Shown here: in pieces, positions 1 to 63,690 of the stretch
Layout of the letters: every line of letters begins with the position of its first letter
How positions within the stretch are numbered: the stretch's first letter is position 1
Assembly (NCBI GenBank): GCA_964035575.1
Contig: CAXIVB010000021.1
Coordinates: 1-64,000, forward strand
DNA from: Rhynchopus sp. YZ270_cl-10
Lineage: Eukaryota > Euglenozoa > Diplonemea > Diplonemida > Diplonemidae
DNA length: 64,000 nucleotides
Direction: 5' to 3'
The notes under the pieces: generated by a model
What the model was told of the DNA's origin: nothing
Seen by the model: only the letters and a program-made list of their open reading frames with translations
Databases searched by the model: none
Position numbers and translations under genes: made by a program

Positions 1-255
1 GGCTTCAGGAGCATCCAAATAACCCGTTTCCCAACGTTTTCGCATTTTTGACCAGTTGGGCTGTTGCGGAATAGCAGGTAAAAACGGTCATTTTGGCCAC
101 CTCAATTAGGGCACTTCTGATGCTCCAATCAAATCGTCCGACCTCATAATGGGTTCGGGAGCACCCAAATAACACATATTCCCAACGTTTTCGCGTTTTT
201 GATCCTGTGTGAGCAATCCAGAACAACTTTCTGCTTCAGTAAAAAAAAGTAAAAA

Positions 256-374
256 GGATTCAAGCACCCGGACTTCCCAGCTGGTCACCCACGCCAGTAC
301 TATCCAGGCCTGCTGGTGCTTAACTTCTCAAATCAGGCGGGATGAGGTGTATTCACCAGAGTATGGCCGAATCC
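256..374 (-). rRNA. 5S rRNA: 5S ribosomal RNA
   Basis: A 119-nt 5S rRNA, the Pol III-transcribed RNA of the large subunit. The ends GGATTC and GAATCC pair as helix I. The conserved GAAGTTAAGC and GGGTGACC segments and the 3' CCGGGTGCTTGAATCC are present, and a T run follows on the minus strand. It differs from the plus-strand gene at 13407 at one visible base (GAATACACC against GAATGCACC). Confidence 0.97.
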
Positions 375-459
375 AATACTGAGTCATGATGGACAACATG
401 TGAACAGGTTGTTTGTGACCTAACAACGAACCAGAAATAGGACAGTGAACAAAAAACAA

Positions 460-531
460 GGCACTAGAGGGGATCGAACCCTCGACCTCTCGCTTACTGG
501 GCGAGCGCTCTAACCACTGAGCTATAGCGCC
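460..531 (-). tRNA. tRNA-Thr-AGT: tRNA-Thr (AGT)
   Basis: Complete cloverleaf. Acceptor GGCGCTA/TAGTGCC, anticodon stem CTCGC/GCGAG, loop CCAGTAA giving AGT. The base before the anticodon is C33 instead of the near-universal T33. T arm GAGGG-TTCGATC-CCCTC. The same sequence occurs in all three units. Confidence 0.94.
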
Positions 532-652
532 ATGCTTTCTCTCCATCTTCTTTTCTTTGAAGGGGGTCTTTTGAAATGTACAGAGCACGCATCAAAAATT
601 TCCTTCATACCTCCGCGATGGTGAAAAAATTTTTAACGAAGGAGCCTAGTAA

Positions 653-733
653 GGCGAGGTGGCCGAGTGGTCTAAGGCGCTACGTTCAGGTCGTAGTCTC
701 TTCGGGGGCGTGAGTTCAAACCTCACCCTCGTC
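653..733 (+). tRNA. tRNA-Leu-CAG: tRNA-Leu (CAG)
   Basis: Class II tRNA with a long variable arm (TCTCTTCGGGGGC). Acceptor GGCGAGG/CCTCGTC, anticodon stem CTACG/CGTAG, loop TTCAGGT giving CAG. Followed by a T run. No intron. Confidence 0.96.
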
Positions 734-812
734 ACTTTTTCTTCGTTGTGTGATCACTTAAAAGCCTATTTCGGCCCAAAGCTTGTTGTTTTAAAGAAGC
801 ATCATAATTGTG

Positions 813-883
813 GGGCTCTTAGCTCAGTGGAAGAGCGCCCGTTCCGCATACGGGAGGCCGAGAGTTCGAACCTCTCAGGGTCC
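813..883 (+). tRNA. tRNA-Ala-CGC: tRNA-Ala (CGC)
   Basis: Acceptor GGGCTCT/AGGGTCC, whose third pair G3·T70 is the Ala identity element. Anticodon stem CCCGT/ACGGG, loop TCCGCAT giving CGC with C at position 33. T arm GAGAG-TTCGAAC-CTCTC, then a T run. Confidence 0.94.
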
Positions 884-961
884 ACAGTTTTTTTTTCCCC
901 TGTTTTGTTTCTCCTGTGTAAATTGGTTCTCAGAGCTTTCACACCTTGCTCCCTAAAATGT

Positions 962-1032
962 GGCTGTTTAGCTCAGTGGTAGAGCACATCATCCGTAATG
1001 ATGGGGTCGTGGGTTCAATCCCCACAGCGGCC
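962..1032 (+). tRNA. tRNA-Thr-CGT: tRNA-Thr (CGT)
   Basis: Acceptor GGCTGTT/AGCGGCC, anticodon stem CATCA/TGATG, loop TCCGTAA giving CGT with C33. T arm GTGGG-TTCAATC-CCCAC, followed by a T run. It ends the four-gene tRNA group at the start of the unit. Confidence 0.94.
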
Positions 1033-1134
1033 TAGGTTTTTTTCAGAGCTCCCCAAGAACCTAACTTGGGGTTTGTGGGTTTGCGGTCACTGGTGCACAC
1101 ATGGCCTGTGGACGGGCAGGGACAAAAAAAAATT

Positions 1135-1464
1135 GGGTGCTTGCGTTGTGTGCTGGATCGGGACCACCAGTAAACTGGCAATCCCACATCCAGTTCTAAT
1201 ATTTGAAGTGTGAAATAGAACGCAATCGGAAGATTAGTTTACACGAATGTAAGAATAATATCGTCATGGTAATATTCTGTACAGATTGTACGGGATTTAC
1301 TATCATATGAGAGTAGTCCGTCGCAGGCCACATCGGGCCCGCAACATGACCGGTCTTCACACAAAATTGTAAAAGAATTTTCCTTGGAAAAAATGTCTTT
1401 TCAAGTTTTTGTTGTTGCCTGAACGAGTTGTTTGGTTTCGAAGTAGCACACTAACTTAGCACCC
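1135..1464 (-). ncRNA. 330-nt structured RNA of unknown identity, paralogue A
   Basis: About 330-nt gene defined by a promoter element at 1489-1522 whose start lies 57-58 nt before the RNA 5' end, a terminal stem in which the 5' GGGTGC and following bases pair with GCACAC...GCACCC at the 3' end, and a run of nine T on the coding strand after the last base. It is a diverged paralogue of the plus-strand gene at 11181-11505. Two internal hairpins are kept by both (here around 1279-1291 and 1323-1342) with paired base changes. No box A/C/D set of U3 and no RNase P or MRP core motif was recognised. Shared promoter and T-run end imply Pol III transcription; function unknown. Confidence 0.62.
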
Positions 1465-1488
1465 AAAACATGCAGCAAACATCGGAAT

Positions 1489-1522
1489 ACAAGACAGGGT
1501 CGTCTTGTTGGAGGTGGGTCAG
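1489..1522 (-). promoter_or_regulatory. Pol III-type upstream element of RNA paralogue A
   Basis: Minus-strand CTGACCCACCTCC followed by a near-palindrome (ACAAGAC...GTCTTGT). Its first base is 57-58 nt before the 5' GGGTGC of the RNA, the spacing seen at 11124 for paralogue B. Confidence 0.7.
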
Positions 1523-2039: not shown

Positions 2040-3510
2040 GAGAAATTTTTGGAAAATGGCATATTTAGGGGCTCCTGAATCCATTATGAGGGTCAGATGA
2101 ATCAATCTGAGCATCACACATATCCTAATAGACAAAATGTCCGTTTATCAAAATACCTGAAAATGCCTCTTTATCCTATCTAAGGATGTCAGAAACCCTT
2201 AAAAGTGCAAAAAATCTTGGGAATATAGGGTTTTTGGGCCATTCTGAATCCATTGCGGGGTCGGACGATTTGATTGGAGCATCAGAAGTATCCTAATCGG
2301 TAAAATGTCGCAAAAATATGGGCAAAATGCCTTTATACCCTATCTAAGCAATTAGAATGTGCTCTAAAACGCAAAAATCTTGGGAATATGGGGTTTTGGG
2401 CACATCTGAGTTCATTGCGGGGTCGTACGATCAGATCTGAGCATCACATAATGTCTAGAATTTTACAGGTGCAACAAACACCTGTATTTTGGTGTAACAT
2501 GCATATAACCATATCTGAATACCTTAAATTTGCACGAAAATGCAAAAATCTTGGGAATATGGGGTTTTTTGGGCACATCTGAGTCAATTGCGGGGTCGCA
2601 CGATCAGATCCGAGCATCACACAATACCTAGAATTTCAACTATGCAATAAACATGTCTATTTTGGGTAAAATGGCTAATAACCACATGTAAGTAGCTTAA
2701 AAATGCTCTAAAATGCAATAATCTTGGGAATATGGGGTTTTTGGGCACATTTGAGTTCATTGCGGGGTCGCACGATCAGATCCGAGTATCACACAATGTC
2801 TAGAATTTCAAAAAAGCAACAATCACATGTATTTTGGTGTAAAATGCATATAACCATATCTGAATGTCTCAAATACGCATGAAAATGAAGAAATCTTGGG
2901 TATATAGGGTTTTTGGGCACATCTGAGTCAATTGCGGGGTCGTACGGTCAGATCCGAGCATCAGACAATGTCTAGAATTTTAGCTATGCAACAAACACCT
3001 GTATATTGGGTAAAATGGCTAATAATCATATCTAAATGGCTCATATATGCTCGAAAATGCAAAAATCTTGGGAATGTGGGGTTTTTGGACATTTTTGAGT
3101 CAATTGCGGGGTCGTACGATCAGATTAGAGCATCACACAATGTCTCAAATTTTACAGGTGCAACAAACACCTGTATTTTGGTGTAACATGCAAACAACCA
3201 TATCTAAATACCTCAAATTTGCACGAAAATGAAGAAATCTTGGGTATATAGGGTTTTTGGGCCAATCTGAGTCAATTGCGGGGTCGCACGGTCAATTCCG
3301 AGTATCAGGCCCTCTCTACAACTTAGCCGGTGCTCAAACATAGGGGTTACAGGCAAATATACCTGTACACAGGCATATGACCTCTGTACGAACCTTCTTT
3401 TCACTCGAAAATGCAATTTTCTTGGGTATATGGGGTATTTGAGCACATCTGAGTCAATTGCGGGGTCGTACGCTCAGATCCGAGCATCACACACTGTCTA
3501 ACTGAGAAAT
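2040..3510. repeat. degenerate satellite block
   Basis: About ten diverged monomers of roughly 140-150 bp. Recurring parts are ATCTTGGGAATATGGGG, TTTTTGGGCACATCTGAGT, CAATTGCGGGGTC and GATCAGATCCGAGCATCACA. The monomers are in the opposite orientation to related copies at 8170, 21340 and 24480. No gene seen. Confidence 0.85.
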
Positions 3511-3522
3511 ATTTTGAAAAAA

Positions 3523-5107
3523 GTCGATTTTTTGGTGAAAATATTTTTCACAGAAAATCGAATTTTACTATTAAGATTGGCTTTGGGCATGACCCAGTAA
3601 GGTTACTATGGGCCCCATGGGACATATACACCCGAATACCAGGCCGTATTTTCAAAAAGTTGATAATCCCAGTATATGGTATGGCCCTGTGGTACGAAAT
3701 TTTTGGCCGAAAAAATCGACCAAAAAATCGTCATTTTTGGGGGTCACGGTGACAAAAAGTTGCATTTTTTCACGAAAAATGGTCGGAATGTGACTTGAAT
3801 GGGCTCTAATGGGTATATTATGCACATAACATACCTAAATTATGTCGATATTTCACCGGCGGAGCCGAAAAAATCGATTTTCAGGGTGTGCAAAACTGTA
3901 AAAATGACGAAAATCGGAAAAATGACGATTTTTTGGTCAAAATATTTTTCACAGAAAATCGAATTTTACTATTAAGATTGGCTTTGGGCATGACCCAGTA
4001 AGGTTACTATGGGCCCCATGGGACATATACACCCGAATACCAGGCCGTATTTTCAAAAAGTTGATAATCCCAGTATATGGTATGGCCCTGTGGTACGAAA
4101 TTTTTGGCCGAAAAAATCGACCAAAAAATCGTCATTTTTCGGGGTCACGGTGACAAAAAGTTGCATTTTTTCACGAAAAATGGTCGGAATGTGACTTGAA
4201 TGGGCTCTAATGGGTATATTATGCACATAACATACCTAAATTATGTCGATATTTCACCGGCGGAGCCGAAAAAATCGATTTTCAGGGTGTGCAAAACTGT
4301 AAAAATGACGAAAATCGGAAAAATGACGATTTTTTGGTCAAAATATTTTTCACAGAAAATCGAATTTTACTATTAAGATTGGCTTTCGGCATGACCCAGT
4401 AAGGTTACTATGGGCCCCATGGGACATATACACCCGAATACCAGGCCGTATTTTCAAAAAGTTGATAATCCCAGTATATGGTATGGCCCTGTGGTACGAA
4501 ATTTTTGGCCGAAAAAATCGACCAAAAAATCGTCATTTTTCGGGGTCACGGTGACAAAAAGTTGCATTTTTTCACGAAAAATGGTCGGAATGTGACTTGA
4601 ATGGGCTCTAATGGGTATATTATGCACATAACATACCTAAATTATGTCGATATTTCACCGGCGGAGCCGAAAAAATCGATTTTCAGGGTGTGCAAAACTG
4701 TAAAAATGACGAAAATCGGAAAAATGACGATTTTTTGGTCAAAATATTTTTCACAGAAAATCGAATTTTACTATTAAGATTGGCTTTCGGCATGACCCAG
4801 TAAGGTTACTATGGGCCCCATGGGACATATACACCCGAATACCAGGCCGTATTTTCAAAAAGTTGATAATCCCAGTATATGGTATGGCCCTGTGGTACGA
4901 AATTTTTGGCCGAAAAAATCGACCAAAAAATCGTCATTTTTCGGGGTCACGGTGACAAAAAGTTGCATTTTTTCACGAAAAATGGTCGGAATGTGACTTG
5001 AATGGGCTCTAATGGGTATATTATGCACATAACATACCTAAATTATGTCGATATTTCACCGGCGGAGCCGAAAAAATCGATTTTCAGGGTGTGCAAAACT
5101 GTAAAAA
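3523..5107. repeat. 401-bp tandem repeat, four copies
   Basis: Four near-identical 401-bp monomers; ATGGGCCCCATGGGAC recurs at 3608, 4009, 4410 and 4811. The first monomer has TTTTTGGGGGTC where the others have TTTTTCGGGGTC. The last one breaks into AAAATCACCAAAATCCC. Any reading frame here is a by-product of repetition. Confidence 0.96.
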
Positions 5108-6170
5108 TCACCAAAATCCCAAAAATCACGATTTTTTTTCAAAAATATTTTTTTCAAAAAAATCGATTTTAAAATATTGGTTTGGCTTGTGCGGGGACCT
5201 GAATCTGGGGCAACATACCCTGTGGGACATACTGGGCCCTATGCAAGGCCGAATTTTCAAAAATGTGGTTGCCCCGGTAGACGGTATGGCCCTGCAGGTC
5301 AGTGCATCGGGCCAAAAATCATGAAAAAATCATGATTTTGGGGTCTGGCACCCCATGGGCACATATATCTGGGGGTGTGAAATATGCATGGAATCGACCG
5401 ATTGGGGGTGTTATAGGTCCTGGGGGCCCACATGGGCCATATTTCACGCTATTGGGTCACGGGAAAGTGATTTTGACATTTTTTCATCGATTTTAGCTGT
5501 GAGAACCCTTCAAAAACACTGATTTTGGGGTGTTTCTGAGACGGTACGCTATACCCAGGGTCATATTAGGTATTAGTCCGGTCGACTTTTTGAAAAAACG
5601 ACCCCGCAATGGACTCAGGGGTGCCAGATAGTGTATATGCACCAGAATGGATTCACGGGAAAAGTCAAAATTGGGTGTCAGATACATGCTGCCATAAGTG
5701 ACGAATTTCAAAAGTTGAGATTTTTCGAAAATCAGGGTTCAGTACACGCTGTACCCAATCCTGGGGGCCAAAATTTTCAACTTTTTGAAAAAACGGGCGG
5801 TATATGGCCCTAAAGTGTCAAAATGAGTTAATTGCGACCTCGGACGGCCTCCGGAGATGAGTAGAAGTTTATTTACTGAAAAAAAAAGTCAAAACACAGG
5901 CAAAATCCCACCTTCCACAGGTACAGTCAAAACTTTTATCCAGATCTCATGTTTTTTCAAAAAATTTTAAATTGTTTTTATGACTAACACCTCCGAAATT
6001 TTTCCTGATAAGATGGAATATGGTCCTGTCGTAGTATGCAGTGTGTTTGCAGGCAAAAATTTGCATTTTCTCGCCCCAGACATTTTTTTATACATAAAAG
6101 TGCATAAAGGGACCCCTGACCCCAAAATCCGGGTTCCAGCTTTTTGAAGGGGTCACCCTACAGGCCACCT

Positions 6171-8720: not shown

Positions 8721-8740
8721 GCATGCTTCCCAGGACACGT
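8721..8740 (+). promoter_or_regulatory. PSE-like element of SL gene a
   Basis: GGCATGCTTCCCAGGACACG. The G of GCTTCC lies 47 nt before the point where the five SL copies become invariant. Confidence 0.75.
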
Positions 8741-8771
8741 CTGTACTCAGAACGTTGTAGAGAAAAAAGGC

Positions 8772-8884
8772 AACCAACGATTTCTAAAGCTACAGTTTCT
8801 GTACTTCATTGGTATGGAAGCATGAAGATTATATCTTCTCACACAACTTTGTCAAAACATGGCCAGTCTCGAAAGAGACTGGCC
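8772..8884 (+). ncRNA. candidate spliced-leader RNA, copy a
   Basis: A 113-nt RNA with spliced-leader architecture. A 40-nt leader (8772-8811, beginning AACCAACG and ending TTCATTG) is followed by a splice-donor-like GTATGG. The leader end CTTCAT pairs with ATGAAG in the intron part, placing the donor in a hairpin as in known SL RNAs. An Sm-like AACTTTGT comes next, then a perfect 10-bp hairpin GGCCAGTCTC-GAAA-GAGACTGGCC and a T run. The donor pairs over six bases with the unusual U1 5' end encoded at 12965. Five copies per unit are almost invariant inside 8772-8884 and diverge outside. Role as SL donor for mRNA trans-splicing is inferred. Confidence 0.75.
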
Positions 8885-9155
8885 TTTTTTACGTTAGCAT
8901 GATCGTCTTGTGCACAAGAAGCAAACCCAAAAACACACACGATTCACACATGACATAACACACAAGTGCTTACTGCACCCCATTTTTATATCGCCTGCAA
9001 AACCATATTTGTGACACTTGTTCCCCTTCAGAAGCCACTGTTGACTCTGTCGAATATCCTTCTGTAGGATCACACTTAAGGATATTTTTATGTAGAACCT
9101 TCACAGTGACCAAGATGTCAGGTACGAAAAAGCAACCGTATTATAGACATTGGCA

Positions 9156-9175
9156 GAAGGCTTCCCAGAACAAGT
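9156..9175 (+). promoter_or_regulatory. PSE-like element of SL gene b
   Basis: AAGGCTTCCCAGAACAAGTG; GCTTCC starts at 9160, 47 nt before the RNA start at 9207. Confidence 0.75.
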
Positions 9176-9206
9176 GGGTACCTAGAACATTGTAGAGAAA
9201 AAGGGC

Positions 9207-9318
9207 AACCAACGATTTCTAAAGCTACAGTTTCTGTACTTCATTGGTATGGAAGCATGAAGATTATATTCTTCACACAACTTTGTCAAAACATGGCCAG
9301 TTTCGAAAGAGACTGGCC
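9207..9318 (+). ncRNA. candidate spliced-leader RNA, copy b
   Basis: Same 40-nt leader and GTATGG donor as copy a. The 3' hairpin reads GGCCAGTTTC-GAAA-GAGACTGGCC, one C to T change that leaves a G·U pair. One base is missing in the linker before the Sm-like site. T run follows. Confidence 0.75.
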
Positions 9319-9394
9319 TTTTTTACGTTAACATCACCTTGTGCAAACCCAAAAAACACACATGATTCCCATGTTCTTCGAATATTTTGGTGAT

Positions 9395-9480
9395 TAGGAT
9401 ATGTGTAATGCTCAGATTAAATTGTACGACCACGCAATTGACTCAAATGAGCCCAAATATCCCGTATTCCCAAGATTTTT
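9395..9480. repeat. satellite fragment between SL genes
   Basis: One monomer piece (GTAATGCTCAGATTAAATTG, CGCAATTGACTCAAATG, CCCAAATATCCCGTATTCCC), related to 8330-8430. Confidence 0.75.
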
Positions 9481-9574
9481 GGACTTTCGAGCACATTGGG
9501 CATCCTTAGGTATGTTTATAAGCCACTCTACGGCTATGTTAGAAAAAAAACCCACCATAATAATGATACATATG

Positions 9575-9594
9575 GCATGATTCCCAGAACATGT
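9575..9594 (+). promoter_or_regulatory. PSE-like element of SL gene c
   Basis: GCATGATTCCCAGAACATGT, a variant with GATTCC in place of GCTTCC, 47 nt before the RNA start at 9626. Confidence 0.7.
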
Positions 9595-9625
9595 TGGCAC
9601 TTAGAACATTGTAGAGAAAAAGGGC

Positions 9626-9737
9626 AACCAACGATTTCTAAAGCTACAGTTTCTGTACTTCATTGGTATGGAAGCATGAAGATTATTCTTCTCACACAAC
9701 TTTGTCAAAACATGGCCAGTTTCGAAAGAGACTGGCC
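9626..9737 (+). ncRNA. candidate spliced-leader RNA, copy c
   Basis: Leader, donor, Sm-like site and GAAA-capped hairpin as in copy b; the linker reads GATTATTCTTCTC. Flanked upstream by satellite rather than by the CCCCTTCAGAAGCC sequence of copies a and b. Confidence 0.75.
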
Positions 9738-9833
9738 TTTTTTACGTTAACACGATCGTCTTGTGCACAAGAAGCAAAAAAACCCACACAACAACAGCAG
9801 AAGTTTAGAACCACATTCAGACCCTGACCCAAC

Positions 9834-9866
9834 TCCAACAAGGGGCCCCTGTCTTGTCAACCACCT
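9834..9866 (+). promoter_or_regulatory. Pol III-type upstream element of U6
   Basis: CTGACCCAACTCCAACAAGG...GTCTTGT. Counting 57 nt from its first base gives 9891. An AT-rich CATATATACT lies between (9871-9880). Confidence 0.65.
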
Positions 9867-9880
9867 TGTGCATATATACT

Positions 9881-9981
9881 GGACCCCAGAAATGGGACAT
9901 CCGTTAAAATTGGATCGATACAGAGAAGATTAGCATGGTCCCTGCGCAAGGATGACACGCATTAATCGAGAAAGTATCAAC
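9881..9981 (+). ncRNA. U6: U6 spliceosomal RNA
   Basis: U6 snRNA, the catalytic RNA of the spliceosome. Diagnostic parts: ACAGAGA at 9920-9926 followed by AGATTAGC, then the U4-pairing and stem-loop region CCCTGCGCAAGGATGACACG. A run of nine T after 9981 is a Pol III terminator. CCC-AGAAAT-GGG near the start may be the 5' stem-loop. The exact 5' end is uncertain between 9881 and 9891: promoter spacing favours 9891, the hairpin favours 9881-9884. The U4-pairing segment matches the U4 gene at 12110-12252. Confidence 0.96.
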
Positions 9982-10153
9982 TTTTTTTTTGTCCCCCGGA
10001 TCACACGTATTTTTTACACTGGTGTCTTCTTCATGCTTCCCAGACCAACACATATGTGCAGACATACCCATCACCCACAGGTGGCAAGTGGCAGGCTGCA
10101 GTAACCCATTGAAATATTGGTTTCAAAAAACGACCATATGGTTTATGCTACTG

Positions 10154-10173
10154 GCATGCTTCCCTGAGCATAT
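10154..10173 (+). promoter_or_regulatory. PSE-like element of SL gene d
   Basis: GGCATGCTTCCCTGAGCATA; GCTTCC at 10158, 47 nt before 10205. A similar CATGCTTCCCAG at 10033 has no recognisable RNA at that spacing. Confidence 0.72.
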
Positions 10174-10204
10174 ACATGTCGAAAGCTGTGTAGAGAAAAA
10201 GAGC

Positions 10205-10316
10205 AACCAACGATTTCTAAAGCTACAGTTTCTGTACTTCATTGGTATGGAAGCATGAAGATTACTCTTCTCACACAACTTTGTCAAAACATGGCCGGTT
10301 TCGAAAGAGACTGGCC
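10205..10316 (+). ncRNA. candidate spliced-leader RNA, copy d
   Basis: Leader and donor identical to the others. 3' hairpin arm reads GGCCGGTTTC, so two pairs become G·U wobbles and the stem is kept. Linker GATTACTCTTCTC. Confidence 0.75.
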
Positions 10317-52899: not shown

Positions 52900-54885
52900 G
52901 TCGATTTTTTGGTGAAAATATTTTTCACAGAAAATCGAATTTTACTATTAAGATTGGCTTTGGGCATGACCCAGTAAGGTTACTATGGGCCCCATGGGAC
53001 ATATACACCCGAATACCAGGCCGTATTTTCAAAAAGTTGATAATCCCAGTATATGGTATGGCCCTGTGGTACGAAATTTTTGGCCGAAAAAATCGACCAA
53101 AAAATCGTCATTTTTCGGGGTCACGGTGACAAAAAGTTGCATTTTTTCACGAAAAATGGTCGGAATGTGACTTTAATGGGCTCTAATGGGTATATTATGC
53201 ACATAACATACCTAAATTATGTCGATATTTCACCGGCGGAGCCGAAAAAATCGATTTTCAGGGTGTGCAAAACTGTAAAAATGACGAAAATCGGAAAAAT
53301 GACGATTTTTTGGTCAAAATATTTTTCACAGAAAATCGAATTTTACTATTAAGATTGGCTTTCGGCATGACCCAGTAAGGTTACTATGGGCCCCATGGGA
53401 CATATACACCCGAATACCAGGCCGTATTTTCAAAAAGTTGATAATCCCAGTATATGGTATGGCCCTGTGGTACGAAATTTTTGGCCGAAAAAATCGACCA
53501 AAAAATCGTCATTTTTCGGGGTCACGGTGACAAAAAGTTGCATTTTTTCACGAAAAATGGTCGGAATGTGACTTGAATGGGCTCTAATGGGTATATTATG
53601 CACATAACATACCTAAATTATGTCGATATTTCACCGGCGGAGCCGAAAAAATCGATTTTCAGGGTGTGCAAAACTGTAAAAATGACGAAAATCGGAAAAA
53701 TGACGATTTTTTGGTCAAAATATTTTTCACAGAAAATCGAATTTTACTATTAAGATTGGCTTTCGGCATGACCCAGTAAGGTTACTATGGGCCCCATGGG
53801 ACATATACACCCGAATACCAGGCCGTATTTTCAAAAAGTTGATAATCCCAGTATATGGTATGGCCCTGTGGTACGAAATTTTTGGCCGAAAAAATCGACC
53901 AAAAAATCGTCATTTTTCGGGGTCACGGTGACAAAAAGTTGCATTTTTTCACGAAAAATGGTCGGAATGTGACTTGAATGGGCTCTAATGGGTATATTAT
54001 GCACATAACATACCTAAATTATGTCGATATTTCACCGGCGGAGCCGAAAAAATCGATTTTCAGGGTGTGCAAAACTGTAAAAATGACGAAAATCGGAAAA
54101 ATGACGATTTTTTGGTCAAAATATTTTTCACAGAAAATCGAATTTTACTATTAAGATTGGCTTTCGGCATGACCCAGTAAGGTTACTATGGGCCCCATGG
54201 GACATATACACCCGAATACCAGGCCGTATTTTCAAAAAGTTGATAATCCCAGTATATGGTATGGCCCTGTGGTACGAAATTTTTGGCCGAAAAAATCGAC
54301 CAAAAAATCGTCATTTTTCGGGGTCACGGTGACAAAAAGTTGCATTTTTTCACGAAAAATGGTCGGAATGTGACTTGAATGGGCTCTAATGGGTATATTA
54401 TGCACATAACATACCTAAATTATGTCGATATTTCACCGGCGGAGCCGAAAAAATCGATTTTCAGGGTGTGCAAAACTGTAAAAATGACGAAAATCGGAAA
54501 AATGACGATTTTTTGGTCAAAATATTTTTCACAGAAAATCGAATTTTACTATTAAGATTGGCTTTCGGCATGACCCAGTAAGGTTACTATGGGCCCCATG
54601 GGACATATACACCCGAATACCAGGCCGTATTTTCAAAAAGTTGATAATCCCAGTATATGGTATGGCCCTGTGGTACGAAATTTTTGGCCGAAAAAATCGA
54701 CCAAAAAATCGTCATTTTTCGGGGTCACGGTGACAAAAAGTTGCATTTTTTCACGAAAAATGGTCGGAATGTGACTTGAATGGGCTCTAATGGGTATATT
54801 ATGCACATAACATACCTAAATTATGTCGATATTTCACCGGCGGAGCCGAAAAAATCGATTTTCAGGGTGTGCAAAACTGTAAAAA
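52900..54885. repeat. 401-bp tandem repeat, five copies
   Basis: Monomers marked by ATGGGCCCCATGGGAC at 52985, 53386, 53787, 54188 and 54589; the first shares GACTTTAATGGG with unit 2's first monomer. Confidence 0.96.
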
Positions 54886-57800
54886 TCACCAAAATCCCAA
54901 AAATCACGATTTTTTTTGAAAAATATTTTTTTCAAAAAAATCGATTTTAAAATATTGGTTTGGCTTGTGCGGGGACCTGAATCTGGGGCAACATACCCTG
55001 TGGGACATACTGGGCCCTATGCAAGGCCGAATTTTCAAAAATGTGGTTGCCCCGGTAGACGGTATGGCCCTGCAGGTCAGTGCATCGGGCCAAAAATCAT
55101 GAAAAAATCATGATTTTGGGGTCTGGCACCCCATGGGCACATATATCTGGGGGTGTGAAATATGCATGGAATCGACCGATTGGGGGTGTTATAGGTCCTG
55201 GGGGCCCACATGGGCCATATTTCACGCTATTGGGTCACGGGAAAGTGATTTTGACATTTTTTCATCGATTTTAGCTGTGAGAACCCTTCAAAAACACTGA
55301 TTTTGGGGTGTTTCTGAGACGGTACGCTATACCCAGGGTCATATTAGGTATTAGTCCGGTCGACTTTTTGAAAAAACGACCCCGCAATGGACTCAGGGGT
55401 GCCAGATAGTGTATATGCACCAGAATGGATTCACGGGAAAAGTCAAAATTGGGTGTCAGATACATGCTGCCATAAGTGACGAATTTCAAAAGTTGAGATT
55501 TTTCGAAAATCAGGGTTCAGTACACGCTGTACCCAATCCTGGGGGCCAAAATTTTCAACTTTTTGAAAAAACGGGCGGTATATGGCCCTAAAGTGTCAAA
55601 ATGAGTTAATTGCGACCTCGGACGGCCTCCGGAGATGAGTAGAAGTTTATTTACTGAAAAAAAAAGTCAAAACACAGGCAAAATCCCACCTTCCACAGGT
55701 ACAGTCAAAACTTTTATCCAGATCTCATGTTTTTTCAAAAAATTTTAAATTGTTTTTATGACTAACACCTCCGAAATTTTTCCTGATAAGATGGAATATG
55801 GTCCTGTCGTAGTATGCAGTGTGTTTGCAGGCAAAAATTTGCATTTTCTCGCCCCAGACATTTTTTTATACATAAAAGTGCATAAAGGGACCCCTGACCC
55901 CAAAATCCGGGTTCCAGCTTTTTGAAGGGGTCACCCTACAGGCCACCTCAAAAAGTTGGCCCGTAGGGCCAACTTTTTGAAAAAACGGGGTTGCGATGTG
56001 TCCTGGGGGCCCGAAGGGCCCCCAGGACACATCGCTGGGAAAAAAATATTAGGTTTTTGGGGGTCTATATAGGGTTGCTGTGGGGGTCACATGGCCGAAA
56101 AATGGCCATTTTTGGCCTATTTTTGGCCATTTTTTTAAGGTAAAAAATCCACTTTTTTTTTGTACATCCCCTTGCCCCCGGTAAAATTTACCAAACATAT
56201 GGCCCTGTTGGACATACTGGGCCCATGAGTCGGTCGCTGGATCACCAAACTAGTTGCCCTATTTGCTAAAATCATGTTTTCAGGGTCAAAAATAGGGTGT
56301 TTTTTAGGGTCAAAAATAGGGTGTTTTTCAGGGGTATGTTAACCACGTATGTGTCTTAGGGACCAAATTTTCCAGGAATGTGAACCAATCGGGTCGCAAT
56401 GGGTCCAGGGGGCCCGGAGGGCCCCCATGCAGGGAAAATTTGCAACAATCCTGGGCAATGCTGGGGGCCGATAGGGTGTGCCTATACACGTGTTTTTACG
56501 TGTTTTTGGGCACTTTTCAGGATTTTCGAAAATTTTTGCAACACCAAAATCAAAAATTTCGGTCTAGGAGGCCCATATCTGGAAAAAATCGATATTCCAA
56601 TGGCCTCATTGGGACATATTGGGCCCAGGACCCTATTTTCAGGTCCCAGGAAAAGCCAAAACAATAAAAAAAATAGCTCAGGCGACCCCCAAAAATAGGC
56701 GAAAAACAGCCATTTTTAGGGTGTTTTTTAGGGGTATTTTTACACACACAAATTGTTTACCATAGCACACCCCCAGGCTGCCTCAAAATTTTATCTTTAT
56801 TTGATTTTTCCAACCCACATAGGGGTATTGGAGGCACAACTTTCACCAAGCCTGGGGAATTCGGCACTGCACACACACAACTGAAAAAGGCAAAAATCAC
56901 CTGTTTTTCAAGGTGTCGCAGGGTAAATGTTGTTCCTTAAAAACCAAATTTTTTCTAAAAAATCGGCCCTGCGGGTGAAAAAACGACACTATGGGGGGTA
57001 TTCCAGGGTGTGGGGGCCCCAAAAATCCGGTTTAAGACCACGAGAGGGTCCGAATACACACCTGAGAAGGTCCCGGGGAGTAAAAAAATGGCCATTTTTG
57101 GGGGGTCAAAATCTCACTTTTTGGGGGGATGTTTGTATACCCAGTACCGACCCACTAGCTGGGATGCCCAACTTTTCGCGAATATGGGGGCCCGTAGGGC
57201 CCCCGGGGCCCAGGGGGCCCAAAATATCGTGTTGCAGATGCCAGGAGAACATGTTTCAATATTTTGGATACATTTTTCCATAGGGTCATTTTCAAAAGCA
57301 CTGATTTTAGGGGTATTGAGCGAGGTACCCATACCCATGGGTTATCCTATATATTAGTTTTCACTCGAATGTGAAAAAACGATGTCGCAATGGATTCAGG
57401 GGGCCCAAATAGGGTATATGGCCCAGGAAATTTTCAAAAAGTTGACCCAACCAGGTATACAGGCATACAAGCCGGTAGGTCAACAGATAGGGTGTTTTCC
57501 GCACCCAAAATATGGGGTCATGACCATGTGGGTCAGACCTGAATTGATAAATGTTTCGCACAGGTTTTCGCGAATACCCCCTCTATTCCGAATGCGCTAC
57601 AAGAGTTTTAAATTTTTGGCTATTTAGATTCACTTTTAAAAACAAAATGGGTCTCCAGAACACACATGAGGTTCAACATGTACCTCTACAGAAACCTTGG
57701 TTTTGGTCGGATTTTGAGGCCAATTTTTGGGTTCCCACCAATTTCCTAGGGTATACTGGGATATTGCCCGTGTGTCCAAAAGTGATTTTTGGGGCCTTAG

Positions 57801-57950
57801 GACCCCGGAGAATCCATTTAACGGTCGTTTTTGCACCGGAAAGACCTATCTAGTACCCAAAAATCGAATTTTCATATTTTTGAAAAAGTGACCAAAAATC
57901 GACTTTTTTTGGTAACATTGTATGGCATAAATTATTCTACATAATGTGTG
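54886..57950. other. non-coding spacer, unit 3
   Basis: Copy of 5108-8170 including the palindromes at 55949-55979 and 55993-56035. A C to G change near 54918 is the only difference noticed. Confidence 0.8.
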
Positions 57951-58002
57951 ATGCTTGAATAAAAACTTACGACCCCATAATGTACTCGGAACTCACCCAT
58001 GT

Positions 58003-58010
58003 AATTGTTG
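58003..58010. repeat. 8-bp target-site duplication, left
   Basis: AATTGTTG. The uninterrupted site has a single copy at 8232-8239 in unit 1. Confidence 0.93.
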
Positions 58011-58754
58011 CAGGGCGTTCGCTATCGCCATCGTTTTTTCCTGATCGTGGCGAAATGCCAAAAAACCCGAAATTTTTGCTTTTTTACTAGTGCTTAAAAT
58101 AGGTCAAAAAAAAATTTTTCCGCCGGAGAGAAGCTAGTTCGTGGGGGGTGAATCCCTGGTGCTGAGTGATCAAAAAAAATTGCGATTTGCGCGTGATCCC
58201 TTCCCCAGGACTAAAACCAGCAAAACGATGGAGAATTTCATCAATCCCCCCTCACTGAGGGTTCTCTTTGTGCTGTTTAATCGAACAGATGTACAAGAGA
58301 GAAGCATCCGTCATATGAGACTTCATCCTTATTTTGATTATTTTCAATAAACTAACCCGTCTCTCTGCCTCCACCAAGGTTGAAGATAGAGTTGACACGA
58401 GTAGTGACACCTTCTATAACAGGGGGTACGGGACACCTTCAGCTGACTGCAGGATTGAGGAGCGAGCGGGAGTGCTGGGGAAACTTCCTCTCACGGCAGG
58501 CGGGTTTGCGGATGATTTTGAGTACAGTGGACACCCCCTCTGTGACCCCCCCTCCGGGGGGGTCGACAGGGTGGTGGGGAGAAATCTCTCTCTCTTTTTT
58601 TTTTTTTTCCTCCCTTTTTTTTTTTTTATTTATTTATTTATACAGGGTTTCGCCCCGGTGGGGCGAAGCCCTGGGGCGAAATAAAATGTCATTTTTTCAG
58701 GAAAAGATTTTTTTAACGAAAAAAAATATTTTTCGCCCCGGGGCGAACGCCCTG
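58011..58754. mobile_element. non-autonomous hAT-like DNA transposon
   Basis: A 744-bp insertion present only in unit 3. It begins CAGGGCGTTCGC and ends GCGAACGCCCTG, perfect 12-bp terminal inverted repeats, and is flanked by an 8-bp duplication. An 8-bp duplication and termini starting CAGGG are typical of the hAT superfamily. It carries no recognisable transposase, so it would need one in trans. The internal near-palindrome CAGGGTTTCGCCCC-GGT-GGGGCGAAGCCCTG at 58643-58673 mimics its own ends and may be a nested or alternative terminus. Clean flanks suggest a recent insertion. Confidence 0.88.
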
Positions 58755-58762
58755 AATTGTTG
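58755..58762. repeat. 8-bp target-site duplication, right
   Basis: Second AATTGTTG, directly continued by GAGAAAAAAAAACTTTCC as at 8240. Confidence 0.93.
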
Positions 58763-59301
58763 AGAAAAAAAAACTTTCCGAAAAAATGAAATTTCAACCC
58801 GAATATGCACATTTGGGTCATTTTACGGCTATGTAGGTCATTTTGTATGTGTTTTTCGATTATATAGGTGATTAGGATATGTGTGATGCTCAGATTAAAT
58901 CGTAAGACCCCGCAATTGACTCAAATGTGCCCAAAAACCCTATATACCCAAGATTATTAACTTTTCCAGCATATTGGACATCCTTAGGTATGGTTATAAG
59001 CCATGATACGGCTATTGCTGGAAAAATAGCCATAAATTGTGGTTGGTATTGATTTCAGAAATTATGTGATGCTTAGATCATGCCATAGACGCTTTTAATG
59101 GATTCATATGAGCTCATACTACCCATATACCCCTTCAGAAGCCCCTTTTGACTCTTATGAATATCCTTATATAGGCTTCCACTTGTGCAGAACCTTCTCA
59201 GTGTACAAGATGTTAGGTACAAAAAAACCATCATATTTTTTACACTACTGGCATGCTTCCCAGGACACGTCTGTACTCAGAACGTTGTAGAGAAAAAAGG
59301 C

Positions 59302-59413
59302 AACCAACGATTTCTAAAGCTACAGTTTCTGTACTTCATTGGTATGGAAGCATGAAGATTATATTCTTCACACAACTTTGTCAAAACATGGCCAGTTTCG
59401 AAAGAGACTGGCC
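59302..59413 (+). ncRNA. candidate SL RNA, hybrid a/b, unit 3
   Basis: The upstream flank is that of gene a, while the 3' part (GATTATATTCTTCACAC, GGCCAGTTTC stem, then CATCACCTTGTGC) is that of gene b. The 435 bp between the two genes is missing, as expected from recombination between neighbouring SL genes. The RNA itself is intact. Confidence 0.75.
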
Positions 59414-59720
59414 TTTTTTACGTTAACATCACCTTGTGCAAACCCAAAAAACACACATGATTCCCATGTTCTTCGAATATTTTGGTGATTAGGATATGTG
59501 TAATGCTCAGATTAAATTGTACGACCACGCAATTGACTCAAATGAGCCCAAATATCCCGTATTCCCAAGATTTTTGGACTTTCGAGCACATTGGGCATCC
59601 TTAGGTATGTTTATAAGCCACTCTACGGCTATGTTAGAAAAAAAACCCACCATAATAATGATACATATGGCATGATTCCCAGAACATGTTGGCACTTAGA
59701 ACATTGTAGAGAAAAAGGGC

Positions 59721-59832
59721 AACCAACGATTTCTAAAGCTACAGTTTCTGTACTTCATTGGTATGGAAGCATGAAGATTATTCTTCTCACACAACTTTGT
59801 CAAAACATGGCCAGTTTCGAAAGAGACTGGCC
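59721..59832 (+). ncRNA. candidate SL RNA c, unit 3
   Basis: Copy of 9626-9737, unchanged in the RNA. Point differences from units 1 and 2 begin shortly after it. Confidence 0.75.
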
Positions 59833-59972
59833 TTTTTTACGTTAACACGATCGTCTTGTGCACAAGCAAAAAAACCCACACAACAACAGCAGAAGTTTAG
59901 AACCACATTCAGACCCTGACCCAACTCCAACAAGGGGCCCCTGTCTTGTCAACCACCTTGTGCATTTTTACT

Positions 59973-60072
59973 GGACCCCAGAAATGGGACATCCGTTAAA
60001 ATTGGATCGATACAGAGAAGATTAGCATGGTCCCTGCGCAAGGATGACACGCATTAATCGAGAAAGTATCAA
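59973..60072 (+). ncRNA. U6: U6 spliceosomal RNA, unit 3
   Basis: RNA body unchanged, but the AT-rich box before it reads CATTTTTACT instead of CATATATACT. If that box is a TATA element, this copy may be weak. Confidence 0.93.
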
Positions 60073-60296
60073 CTTTTTTTTTGTCCCCCGGATCACACGT
60101 ATTTTTTACACTGGTGTCTTCTTCATGCTTCCCAGACCAACACATATGTGCAGACATACCCATCACCCACAGGTGGCAAGTGGCAGGCTGCAGTGACCCA
60201 TTGAAATATTGGTTTCAAAAAACGACCATATGCTTTATGCTACTGGCATGCTTCCCTGAGCATATACATGTCGAAAGCTGTGTAGAGAAAAAGAGC

Positions 60297-60408
60297 AACC
60301 AACGATTTCTAAAGCTACAGTTTCTGTACTTCATTGGTATGGAAGCATGAAGATTACTCTTCTCACACAACTTTGTCAAAACATGGCCGGTTTCGAAAGA
60401 GACTGGCC
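60297..60408 (+). ncRNA. candidate SL RNA d, unit 3
   Basis: Copy of 10205-10316; RNA unchanged while the upstream DNA has substitutions (GCAGTGACCC, CATATGCTTTATGC). Confidence 0.75.
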
Positions 60409-60561
60409 TTTTTTACGTTAGCATGATTGTCTTTGTGTGTCTTTGTGCAAAGCAAAAAAAAAACACACACAAGAAGTGAGGATCTTCAAAACCACGTTTT
60501 TGACCTGACCCACCTCCAACTAGACAACCCTGTCTTGTATTCCGACAATATGGTATCTATT

Positions 60562-60878
60562 GAGCCGGGATGTGTTGGCTGCATCCTGAAACCCCTAGCT
60601 TCTGGGGGGGCAAGCTTCTCCAGAACTGGGCACTCTTTGAGGTGGACCAAAGGCACCTTCAACTTCTGTGTTGATGTGTTGTCCGTGTTAGTCTACTGTC
60701 CTGTTTGCGGCCTTGGTGTAAACCAGGGCAACAATCAGAGTGAAATGGGGTGAACCGGGCCAGGCTGGTCTCACAGAGCAGCTCATAACTCCTGCAGTGG
60801 ACAGTTCAAGGATCGCAGCACAGAGCAGAGTGAGGGTGTTTCCAACTCAATGGCTTGAACTGGAGAAGCGTTTCTTTT
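60562..60878 (+). ncRNA. 7SL: SRP RNA (7SL), unit 3
   Basis: Copy of 10470-10786, no difference noticed. Confidence 0.88.
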
Positions 60879-61038
60879 TTACATTTTTCCATGTGAACAT
60901 TGTTTCCACATCACCATACACATGTGTTGTTGATACACCCCACCACGTTGCCCAGACCATTCCTACCCACATTATTCACCACAAGTGGCATGTTTACCAG
61001 CACATGTTGGTGCTTAGAGCAATGGTAAGAAAAAGGGC

Positions 61039-61151
61039 AACCAACGATTTCTAAAGCTACAGTTTCTGTACTTCATTGGTATGGAAGCATGAAGATTATA
61101 TTCTTCTCACACAACTTTGTCAAACATGGCCAGCCTCGAAAGAGACTGGCC
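61039..61151 (+). ncRNA. candidate SL RNA e, unit 3
   Basis: Copy of 10947-11059; flanking changes (CAGCACATG, AATGGTAAG) stop at the RNA boundary. Confidence 0.7.
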
Positions 61152-61282
61152 TTTTTTACGTCACCATGAGAAAAAACATTCACACATATGATGCATGTAC
61201 AAAGTGCACAGGTGTGTGTGTCACCCTGACCCACCTCCAACAAGACAACCCTGTCTTGTTTTCCCATACTCTCCCTATGTTT

Positions 61283-61604
61283 GGGTGCTAAGTTAGTGTG
61301 CTACTTCGAAACCAAACAACTCGTTCAGCAACAGCTAAAACTTGAAAAGACCTTTCTTATCAGAAAATTCTTTACAATTTTTATGATGTGTCCTGCTGTG
61401 GGCCTGATATGGCCCAAGGCGGAACCACTTTCATATGATGTAAATCCCGTACGTTCGTACAGAATATTACCCATGATGATTATTCTTACATTAGCGTGTA
61501 ACACTAATTCTGACTGCGTTCTATTTCACACTTCAAATATTAGAACTGGATGTGGGGCTGCCAGTTTACTGGTGGTCCCGATCCAGCACACAACGCAAGC
61601 ACCC
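61283..61604 (+). ncRNA. structured RNA, paralogue B, unit 3
   Basis: 322 nt. Compared with 11181-11505 it has small changes (CTTTCTTATCAG, GATGTGTCCTGCTGTGGGCC). The hairpin becomes GTGGGCC/GGCCCAA, replacing one T-A pair by a mispair, so it may be decaying. The terminal stem is intact. Confidence 0.6.
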
Positions 61605-61724
61605 TTTTTTATATTACCCCACCCAGTACCCCCCCTGTGTCTGTGTTGTTGCCTAAAAAAGCATCACCTTTTACAGGCTTCCTTGTGGGGAGTGTTCGGT
61701 CAAGTGATAGTGATGAAGAAGGAC

Positions 61725-61825
61725 AGGGGCGAGTTTTCTCGTGAAATGCTTTGAAGCCTCTGACATTGAGAGGCTCGCTCCGACCTCTGTTTTTAATAAC
61801 CCTTACCGGTAACCACTGTGTATGT
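61725..61825 (+). ncRNA. possible small snRNA-type gene, unit 3
   Basis: The first hairpin is intact, but the 3' hairpin is lost: CCCTTACCGGTAACCACTG replaces CACATCACAGTGGTAACC. Likely non-functional here, or the RNA ends at the T run. Confidence 0.3.
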
Positions 61826-61890
61826 ATGGTATGTATGGTATGTATGATATGTTGCCTTTGTGTGTTTGTTTTTGTTTTGTTAAAAAAGAG

Positions 61891-62077
61891 GGTATGCCAC
61901 TCCTGGATGTTGTGCAGCTCCAGGGCAACATGTGTGAACGGACCAGGTTGCCCTGGCGACCCGTCACCCCAATGAGAAATTGCGTTAATATCATCAGTGC
62001 ACAAGGCACTGTATCAGATATTAAGCTGATAAGAACAGATAATACACTTGATCTTAGCCAAAAGGCCGAGAAGGTAT
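61891..62077 (-). ncRNA. U2: U2 spliceosomal RNA, unit 3
   Basis: Copy of 11771-11957 with GTATTA kept. Substitutions lie only in the flanks (for example CATACCAAATTC upstream). Confidence 0.95.
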
Positions 62078-62226
62078 GACTTCTTTTTAGTCCATACCAA
62101 ATTCGACACCCATGTACAGGGAAGCATGATGATGATCAATATTACTAGGAAACAACAAGGCAAACAGATTACACACCCATGTCACAGGGAAGTGAGCGAA
62201 GGTGATGATCAATCGTAGTAAAAACA

Positions 62227-62369
62227 AGGCCGCCGAAGCAGCTACACAAATTGCCAATGTGGCAACGCCGAAGCGGCCCATGGCGGGAATTGGGTAGTTT
62301 TCAACCAGCAATCTCTCCACAGCGTCCCTATTTGGTCATTGCTTATGGAATTATCCCGAGCGCAAGAAT
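62227..62369 (-). ncRNA. U4: U4 spliceosomal RNA, unit 3
   Basis: Copy of 12110-12252, unchanged, while upstream and downstream DNA differs at several bases. Confidence 0.93.
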
Positions 62370-62890
62370 ACCTCCTTTTCTCCCAGTCGTGTCACAAAGC
62401 TATGTCAACAGGGAAGCGTGTTGGGGTGGTAACATAAAGACACCACGTAAAGCTAACACACCAGAACTACCACCACCAATGTGCCTCCCTGTAGACATCT
62501 GTGCAGCCGATAGGTGGAACAAACAAGGGCAAGACTGTACTCTACACAGGATCTGTTTTTGAGTGCATTCGTGTTGAAGATTGTTTTCTTCGGCACAAGA
62601 CCAAAGCTGGATGATGACATAGGTTGGGCATGTGCAGCATGAGCACTTGCGATGATTGTCACATACTTCTTGTATTGTTTTGTCTCTCCCCTGTATGGCG
62701 CAGGGAAGAGTACCAGGCACAGCCCTTCCACTTACAGCTTGTTTTTAAGAAAAACCTCAAAAAAGGCTTCACATTACTTTTTTCACCTTCAAGGACATCT
62801 TGATCAATCAAGAAGTTACCACACTATCCTCGCTCTCAACATGCTTCCATGTGTAGCAAAGTGCATACAGCAATAGAACAAAACAGAGCC

Positions 62891-63007
62891 ATATCACGGT
62901 TCTTGCCCATATCGAACTCATCTTTCGCCTTTTACTAAAGATGACCGTGGGTAAGAGCCACTAAGTGAAAGCATAATTTTTGAAGGGGCCTTTGTGTCTC
63001 ATCTGTT
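62891..63007 (+). ncRNA. U5: U5 spliceosomal RNA, unit 3
   Basis: Copy of 12774-12890 with one change, CCACTAAGTG for CCACTATGTG, between the stem and the Sm site. Confidence 0.92.
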
Positions 63008-63079
63008 TTTAAGTCTTGACAACCACTACGCTTCCCTGAAGGTGTTGGAGTTTCGCATGTTGTTAAACTCAGCTAGAGG

Positions 63080-63238
63080 TTACATACCTTACTGGTGTCT
63101 GACCTGATCAACAAGGGCGTCGACACACCAGTGGCCCTTGCATTGCACTGCGCAGGGGATACTGGTGGCACTAGCTTCGGCTGGCTTGCACAGTGAAATT
63201 TTTGACAGCGGCGGTGCTGTGCTTTGCACAAACCCGCC
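63080..63238 (+). ncRNA. U1: U1 spliceosomal RNA, unit 3
   Basis: Copy of 12963-13121; ACATACC unchanged. Confidence 0.87.
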
Positions 63239-63523
63239 TTTTTAAACAAACAAACCAAAACAAACGTGATCACACAAACCATCATGTTACCCAGTAAACC
63301 CAGTAAACCCAGCACACTGGTCTAGAGGGATCGACCACTGAGTGGTGACCTGTGAGCACACAGGCACCTGCTCCGATGCAGTAGTGCAGCGCACTAAGTG
63401 TTGTGCTAAGGACTGGCCAAACTTGTTAAACCTGCTGACCCACAAACCGGTTTTCACAACCGAAGCAAAAACAAGGTCAGAAATAAAAAGCTCTTCAAAG
63501 GTTTTCGAACCTGACTCAGTATT

Positions 63524-63642
63524 GGATTCGGCCATACTCTGGTGAATACACCTCATCCCGCCTGATTTGAGAAGTTAAGCACCAGCAGGCCTGGATAGTA
63601 CTGGCGTGGGTGACCAGCTGGGAAGTCCGGGTGCTTGAATCC
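63524..63642 (+). rRNA. 5S rRNA: 5S ribosomal RNA, unit 3 edge
   Basis: Plus-strand 5S at the last point of homology with units 1 and 2. It has CTGGTGAATACACC, the variant of the minus-strand 5S genes, not that of 13407. T5 follows, then the sequence departs from the repeat. Confidence 0.97.
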
Positions 63643-63690
63643 TTTTTGCTTTTCTTCCGTGTTGGTGTGTGGTTTTCGGACATCCAGACC

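Follow-up and report, generated by a model that had tools for sequence, protein, structure and literature searches.

Small-RNA genes tend to be dispersed, or amplified in groups of only a few. The locus described here raises the question of how a near-complete set of such genes can be repeated as one block, and whether that block is a real feature of the genome. The stretch analysed (the window) comprises positions 1-64,000 of C123, a contig of 174,296 bases in an assembly of 152.4 Mb and 126 contigs, here numbered with a C. It contains two near-identical units of 24,886 and 24,488 bases plus part of a third, arranged head-to-tail, and 65 RNA genes were counted per unit: 48 tRNAs, three 5S ribosomal RNAs, the signal recognition particle (SRP) RNA, the spliceosomal RNAs U1, U2, U4, U5 and U6, the U3 small nucleolar RNA (snoRNA), five spliced leader (SL) RNAs and two RNAs of ~330 nt. 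The super-array was confirmed as a real genomic feature. With good confidence, it is best explained as a nuclear small-RNA super-array of a diplonemid-like euglenozoan, in which the genes would have their own promoters, the copies would be homogenised by exchange and the gene dose would be high.

Structure and gene content of the unit

An earlier note, made from the window alone, had described a head-to-tail unit of ~24.5 kb. This repetition was borne out by self-BLAST, in which 3917-29659 and 28405-54147 formed a direct repeat with 99.93% identity over 25,745 bases (13 mismatches and 4 gaps between the two units), and by the spacing of homologous genes (24,886, 24,488 and, into a variant unit, 25,632 bases). 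Counted from 5S gene to 5S gene, the first unit occupies 255-25140 and the second 25141-49628. The third fills the rest of the window (49629-64000) and runs on past it, with a variant block from 59183 that is 97.4% identical to unit 1; this unit has an additional, fourth 5S gene, which lies just beyond the window at 64279. The array therefore does not end at 63645, where the note had placed its limit, as the contig continues and its array genes reach at least 168,674, with a switch of orientation between 94 and 115 kb. The two complete units differ by 398 bases, which matches one copy of a 401-bp tandem repeat at 3516-5171 whose copy number appears to vary between units; this repeat and a 172-bp tandem repeat in non-gene spacer (2366-3307) were detected by TRF. 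RNA genes make up ~30% of the unit when 5-nt margins and two undecided stretches are included, the remainder being spacer and tandem repeats, and seven longer open frames of the unit gave no Pfam match at E 0.1.

The gene content given in the note (48 tRNAs, three 5S, SRP RNA, U1, U2, U4, U5 and U6) was recovered with ARAGORN and Rfam, and its two ~330-nt RNAs were likewise found, being 85% alike. Its list had omitted U3, and its five SL genes hold for the complete units but not for the variant third, which has four within the window.

ARAGORN called 100 tRNAs in the window and, in a run that allowed introns, 48 per unit, including a tRNA-Tyr with an 11-nt intron that the intron-free run had called Ser. 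The 48 genes carry 44 anticodons and represent 45 species, because the two Met-CAT genes (16554-16627 and 23957-24029) differ in sequence and look, by eye, like elongator and initiator. With the usual eukaryotic tRNA set as a yardstick, Leu-UAA and Sec alone are missing from the unit. The genes are split between the strands (27 and 21), and a run of at least four T lies within 30 nt downstream of all 48, compared with 37% of intergenic control positions. They form five blocks, with minus-strand genes marked (-): four genes at 459-1033 (Thr-AGT(-), Leu-CAG, Ala-CGC and Thr-CGT); 11 at 13609-15427 (Cys-GCA, Ala-AGC, Gln-CTG, Leu-AAG, Asn-GTT, Leu-TAG, Val-CAC, Glu-CTC, Pro-CGG, Arg-CCT(-) and Lys-CTT); 11 at 16245-18149 (Thr-TGT(-), Trp-CCA(-), Met-CAT(-), the intron-bearing Tyr-GTA, Ser-AGA, Asp-GTC, Arg-TCG, Gly-TCC(-), Arg-ACG(-), His-GTG(-) and Gly-GCC); 10 at 19270-21244 (Arg-CCG, Glu-TTC(-), Pro-AGG(-), Asn-GTT, Ser-GCT(-), Lys-CTT(-), Gln-TTG, Ser-TGA(-), Lys-TTT(-) and Ala-TGC); and 12 at 22031-24411 (Ile-AAT, Phe-GAA, Val-AAC(-), Pro-TGG, Leu-CAA(-), Asp-GTC(-), Arg-TCT(-), Val-TAC(-), Met-CAT(-), Gly-CCC(-), Ile-TAT and Ser-CGA). 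The 5S genes are at 255-374 (also 25141-25260 and 49629-49748) and 1576-1695 on the minus strand, each with 89.3 bits in Rfam, and at 13407-13526 on the plus strand with 88.7 bits.

The 5S, SRP, U2, U4, U5 and U6 genes exceed the Rfam gathering score. U6 (9882-9987, 93.7 bits), SRP (7SL) RNA (10472-10779, 129.3 bits) and U5 (12775-12885, 84.9 bits) are on the plus strand, and U2 (11767-11957, also 36255-36445 and 61887-62077; 141.6 bits) and U4 (12113-12252, 63.3 bits) are on the minus strand. U1 (12963-13121, plus) reached 68.0 bits at a cut-off of 69.5, with E values of 4e-15 and 1.7e-16 in two runs. U3 (12413-12625, plus) matched the Plant_U3 model with 35.1 bits (E 1.7e-7, cut-off 80); a box A was seen by eye, and the gene had zero changes between unit types.

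The SL RNA genes are all on the plus strand, at 8772-8886, 9207-9321, 9626-9740, 10205-10319 and 10947-11061, with a 40-nt exon and an intron of ~75 nt whose 3' end is estimated. The exon is exact in all five genes per unit and occurs 14 times in the window. A GT splice site comes after its conserved ACAGTTTCTGTACTT.ATTG end, as in a Euglenozoan spliced leader, and the exon is close to, although slightly unlike, the 39-nt 'Euglenozoa 14' SL (PMC3795323). One copy (SL RNA 2) folded into three hairpins (z -5.5), and the model places a single-stranded AACUUUGUCAAAAC, an Sm-like stretch, between the second and third. The window was also considered as a 5S-SL array of a dinoflagellate, nematode or tunicate; this was ruled out because the exon is kinetoplastid- or diplonemid-like.

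Both ~330-nt RNAs, R330a (1133-1464, minus) and R330b (11182-11508, plus, ending at a T-run), fold far better than shuffled sequences (z -6.3 and -6.2, respectively). Comparison of five sequences from these paralogues showed two compensated pairs in one helix and a broken pair in that same helix, which lends modest support. No Rfam model (RNase MRP, RNase P, 7SK and others) was matched at its cut-off; down to E 10 the R330b stretch (11110-11760) gave four chance-level matches, the best with E 0.086, and the R330a stretch was covered to E 3. A telomerase RNA templating the contig-end repeat described below was rejected, as no 11-mer of that repeat occurs in window positions 1-24800. The stretch 11540-11690 has C/D-like boxes by eye, but 7 of its 151 columns change between unit types and its fold has a z of -0.27, so that it is probably no gene. 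Outside the count of 65, 13205-13330 shows 1 change in 126 columns between unit types and has a weak upstream element (score 11.8).

The unit is not one transcript, because its genes lie on both strands. Two shared upstream elements suggest two promoter classes. An element resembling CATGCTTCCCTG, similar to a proximal sequence element (PSE), precedes all ten SL, U1, U2, U3, U4 and U5 genes and ends 32-35 nt before the annotated start. The ten 18-mers fall within 8722-12927, starting at 8722, 9157, 9576, 10155 and 10897 (SL 1-5), 11991(-) (U2), 12286(-) (U4), 12363 (U3), 12723 (U5) and 12910 (U1). The PSE-like matrix was trained on these same genes, which score 14.0-26.0. A scan gave 29 matches of at least 8, where mononucleotide shuffles averaged 13.3. 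Ten of the 29 belong to the training genes and most of the remainder are unexplained, so that the near-constant distance to the gene start carries more weight. The second element, CCTGACCCA.CTCCAAC...CCTGTCTTGT, lies ~60 nt upstream of U6 (9823-9867, plus), SRP RNA (10412-10456, plus), R330a (1479-1523, minus) and R330b (11123-11167, plus), i.e. four of four, and nowhere else in window positions 1-25200; its core CCTGACCC also occurs at 6115, 15826 and 16019 without the remainder. A strong SL-type element (17.6) with no gene behind it was seen at 10032-10049 and is possibly the remnant of a lost SL copy.

Distribution of the unit in the genome

The whole assembly was searched for six genes, allowing up to 3 mismatches for tRNA-Trp, tRNA-Leu(CAG), U6, the 330-nt RNA (its conserved 5' 44 nt) and 5S, and none for an SL 50-mer; reversed patterns gave 0 for each of the six. 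There were 82 copies of Trp, all exact, and 91 of Leu-CAG, of which 88 were exact and 3 shared the same change (once on C41, twice on C103). The counts for U6, the 330-nt RNA and 5S were 128, 213 and 388, the first 100 places listed for each being all exact, and that for SL was 643 exact copies.

A Leu-CAG gene or a listed U2 gene (at least 46 U2 are known) lies within 35 kb of 75 of the 82 Trp genes, and a partner was found in the same range for 80 of 91 Leu-CAG and 40 of 46 listed U2 genes. Among the seven other Trp genes, four are within 8 kb of a contig start, one is on C6, one on C126 and one at C3:615974. The last, deep in a chromosome, belongs to a unit fragment in which five complete tRNA genes and a piece of a sixth follow the order of the unit. 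That the arrays contain nearly every copy is established for Trp and, in the main, for Leu-CAG; for U6, 5S, SL and the 330-nt RNA it applies less completely, to the listed places. The family searches scored the best 63 of 7,713 tRNA and the best 46 of 2,987 U2 first-look candidates, so divergent copies may exist outside the arrays.

The earlier note had proposed a single master array with few copies elsewhere. There is indeed one amplified block, but it is spread over many contigs and is not a single locus, and although Trp and Leu-CAG are almost wholly inside it, tRNA-Sec, ribosomal DNA (rDNA) and at least one 5S gene (C7:1011718, inside a chromosome) are not. Of the best 53 tRNA-Sec matches scored, 44 exceeded the cut-off, and none coincided with a listed array place. 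Chromosome interiors held 43 copies of equal score (on C5, C7, C17, C36, C42 and others), some only ~390-470 bases apart, and because of these tRNA-Sec is regarded as amplified separately from the unit. A separate 6.6-kb array on C111 holds the rDNA, and numerous 5.8S copies with lower scores are dispersed through chromosome interiors; of the 38 5.8S matches, 27 exceeded the cut-off, the best 39 of 3,857 candidates having been scored. The finding of dispersed Sec and 5.8S genes shows that the searches do reveal small-RNA genes outside the arrays where they are present. A partial SL copy was also noted at C1:1351965, ~35 kb before the C1 array.

Trp or Leu-CAG genes occur on 44 contigs. About a quarter of a megabase was read beyond the window, namely C1:1340001-1510000 and its last 10 kb, C3:1-20000, C3:611001-621000, C123:60001-70000, the last 10 kb of C2, as well as short loci and contig ends. 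Within C1:1340001-1490000, array tRNAs appear from 1387197 onwards, and the gene order is kept in a succession that includes inverted and partial units. The anatomy of C1:1490001-1510000, C3:1-20000, C123:60001-70000 and the C1 end agrees. Units on C1, C3 and C123 share one gene order, and their whole tRNAs are 100% identical to those of the window. Megabase contigs carry 63 Trp and 70 Leu-CAG genes, of which 54 and 64, respectively, were within 300 kb of a contig end, compared with 37.5% of the sequence (contigs of known size; those of unsettled size were given an upper bound, assuming that C1-C101 are numbered by size). The end-arrays had one orientation relative to the end in 28 of 37 cases (p 0.0026, one tie broken arbitrarily); two were mixed, and many rest on one or two genes.

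At the contig ends themselves, an 8-base repeat was observed as (TTTGCGGG)n at 23 of 42 tested starts and as (CCCGCAAA)n at 10 of 22 tested ends plus one degenerate, never reversed; the ends tested were mostly those of array-bearing contigs, not a random sample. Both ends bear it on C6, C11, C28, C31 and C44. As a telomeric repeat it would have a polarity opposite to the usual one (the C-rich strand running 3' to the end); it may alternatively be a subtelomeric satellite. The string (TTAGGG)4 had 0 occurrences on either strand in the whole assembly, and its reversed control string had 43, so another simple repeat of that make-up exists.

Maintenance of the array and alternative explanations

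Conservation differed sharply between genes and spacers. Between unit types, 12 identified genes other than R330b (four SL, U6, SRP, U2, U4, U3, U5, U1 and 5S; 1,808 bases) had 2 changed columns, compared with 100 changed columns, gaps included, in 2,002 intergenic bases. In the explanation favoured here, one ~24.5-kb unit would hold a near-complete set of non-coding RNA genes, each with its own promoter. The tRNA and 5S genes would be transcribed by RNA polymerase III (Pol III) and terminate at T-runs; U6, SRP RNA and both 330-nt RNAs would be served by one common external element, and SL, U1, U2, U3, U4 and U5 by another. Some 80-130 units, whole or partial, would lie in arrays mostly near chromosome ends, kept nearly identical by unequal crossing-over and by exchange or conversion between those ends, with selection on the genes. 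The high dose would serve a cell whose mRNAs need SL RNA.

Several observations weigh against parts of this explanation. SL, U1-U5 and U3 also end in T-runs, as judged by eye, so Pol III is possible for them too. The genomic counts divided by copies per unit are 82 for Trp, 91 for Leu-CAG, 106 for the 330-nt RNA, 128 for U6, and 129 for both 5S and SL, and doubled U6-SL-SRP pieces occur on C1. These values depart from one copy per unit, so dosage is not fixed by linkage, and the fixed proportion of translation, splicing and secretion RNAs suggested in the earlier note is not supported. R330b changes more between unit types than the other genes (7 of 356). C1 and C2 have internal arrays, the 15 exceptions to near-end placement being on C1 (7), C2 (7) and C3 (1); these two, the longest contigs of known size, are possibly joined chromosomes. 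Nine of the 37 end-arrays have the opposite orientation. Beyond the stretches read, the array claim rests on the counts and places of single genes.

That the assembler multiplied a few true units might be suspected from the 13 mismatches and 4 gaps in 25.7 kb that are all that separate the window units, and from small contigs (C105, C123, C124, C126) that start in array sequence. This can hardly be the case, since units differ by insertions, inversions and a 97.4% variant block, Trp or Leu-CAG is found on 44 contigs, the C1 array shares its contig with a Wee1-like kinase gene and a fragment is embedded in C3. Nor is it probable that the units are partly extrachromosomal or mini-chromosomal DNA, although Euglena rDNA is carried on extrachromosomal plasmid-like DNA (PMC2784804) and six contigs holding repeated units (C103, C105, C119, C123, C124 and C126) are only 58-174 kb long: none of the six starts with the terminal repeat, which fits broken pieces of larger arrays, and megabase contigs carry the majority of both Trp (63 of 82) and Leu-CAG (70 of 91) genes.

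The near-end placement is open to two further explanations. The arrays might also serve as structures of the chromosome ends, a role once suggested for the tRNA arrays of Entamoeba (PMC2652664), and the absence of (TTAGGG)4 from the assembly would be in line with this. The separate repeat TTTGCGGG, however, is present at many tested contig ends and lies outside the array on C3, while some ends that bear it have no listed array gene (e.g. the starts of C47, C63 and C93), which makes an end-structure role rather unlikely. A stronger competitor is neutral spread, in which a cluster captured by subtelomeric recombination grew as a passenger, most copies being surplus or silent and copy number having no function. 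Such a process would account for the placement and orientation bias, for partial and broken units, for tolerated insertions that disrupt tRNAs and for a spacer that consists largely of tandem repeats. Against it, the identified genes are nearly unchanged while the spacers change, and Trp copies outside the arrays are rare; neutral spread is considered plausible, short of probable.

The disrupting insertions were observed on C1, where four inserts of 1.5-3.7 kb with related ends lie inside tRNA genes (near 1450704-1454414, 1463081, 1467114 and 1488868). Asp was hit twice, Pro-CGG and Glu-CTC once each; as the inserts were found via broken tRNA genes, any in spacer would escape. The target duplications were 8, 9, 10 and 8 bases (exact overlap, to which chance may add a base or two), and no open frame of at least 180 codons was found in C1:1370001-1490000. 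Dada transposons make target-site duplications of 6-7 bp (PMC8869645). The inserts resemble Dada in their insertion inside small-RNA genes and differ from it in their 8-10 bp duplications; they may represent a DNA transposon of similar habit. No second half was recovered for 2 of 6 broken tRNA genes examined (Pro at C1:1493412 and Asp at C3:615325). In the window, an imperfect inverted repeat at 15819-16026 (also 40307-40514), in the spacer before tRNA-Thr-TGT, is related to sequence near the insert ends and is perhaps a relic of the same element.

Relation to known arrays and biological significance

In Diplonema papillatum, an SL RNA-5S rRNA-U2 tandem repeat with near-identical copies was described (U2 163, SL 110), the SL having a 39-nt exon and a 75-nt intron; tRNA-Leu-UAA is absent, and 211 tRNA genes are present, with at most 10 identical copies each (PMC10161547). 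The window shares the joining of SL, 5S and U2 in one tandem unit, the lack of Leu-UAA and a similar SL (40 + ~75 nt). It differs in having 65 genes per unit instead of three, and the tRNAs of D. papillatum are not described as part of its repeat, which the authors of that study, the first on a diplonemid genome, considered exceptional and seemingly absent from other diplonemids (PMC10161547).

The Wee1-like kinase on C1, ~41 kb before the first array tRNA, had its best named match in D. papillatum (56% identity over 36% of the query), above which ranked only itself and ENA or EukProt entries without names; one protein was tested. The 'Euglenozoa 14' SL entry is presumably from Diplonema. Because the SL exon is near that of Euglenozoa, Leu-UAA is absent as in D. 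papillatum and the kinase is closest to D. papillatum, the organism, a marine protist, is very probably a diplonemid other than D. papillatum, as judged from these sequences.

In Entamoeba, 25 (E. histolytica), 26 (E. terrapinae) and 20 (E. invadens) arrays were counted, the largest unit being 2,364 bp with six tRNAs and 5S, and RNA X being the sole gene other than tRNA and 5S in the surveyed arrays (PMC2652664). Nearly all E. histolytica tRNA genes are in tandem arrays, some with 5S, and tRNAs lie mainly in arrays here as well, as shown for Trp and Leu-CAG; unlike the many small units of Entamoeba, one unit type was found in the stretches read, with 48 tRNAs plus splicing, SL, SRP and U3 RNAs. 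Trypanosomatids have 66-120 tRNA genes per genome (31 loci in Leishmania major) in clusters of 2-10, and a cluster on L. major chromosome 23 combines 10 tRNAs, 5S, U1 and U3 (PMC2695483); these Pol III clusters are alike in mixing small-RNA genes in a related group, but are of low copy. Euglena gracilis has a 0.6-kb SL-5S repeat and U3-U5 linkages (PMC2784804), linkages that recur here, but its units have two genes and no tRNA set.

The unit is thus a tandem small-RNA repeat, yet without the small-unit feature of each of these arrays, and a far more extreme variant of them. By analogy, it looks like trypanosomatid-like clusters gathered into one and then amplified. The author of the earlier note knew of no such near-complete block, and none of comparable completeness was found in the literature searched, which was screened largely by title and the opening of the abstract (most subscription journals and supplements were outside its scope).

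A wider reading, held only tentatively and considered doubtful, is that practically every nuclear small RNA, apart from Sec tRNA and the large rRNAs, derives solely from one mostly subterminal unit, its copies possibly forming one nuclear transcription body and possibly helping to stabilise chromosome ends; any function beyond gene supply is something we infer. If the sole-source reading were true, RNAs of translation, splicing, trans-splicing and secretion would share one type of locus for both their evolution and their variation in dose, and this would be, to our knowledge, the first such eukaryote. The concerted evolution of a whole decoding and splicing set becomes directly measurable, as a change in one gene can spread through the copies while its neighbours stay linked. 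The array also provides a natural setting in which to ask whether the supply of tRNA and SL RNA in a trans-splicing lineage is determined by copy number, and the two shared upstream elements give a ready promoter map. Belonging to this set and sharing its upstream element with U6 and SRP RNA, the 330-nt RNA may be a core RNA of the group that has so far gone unrecognised.

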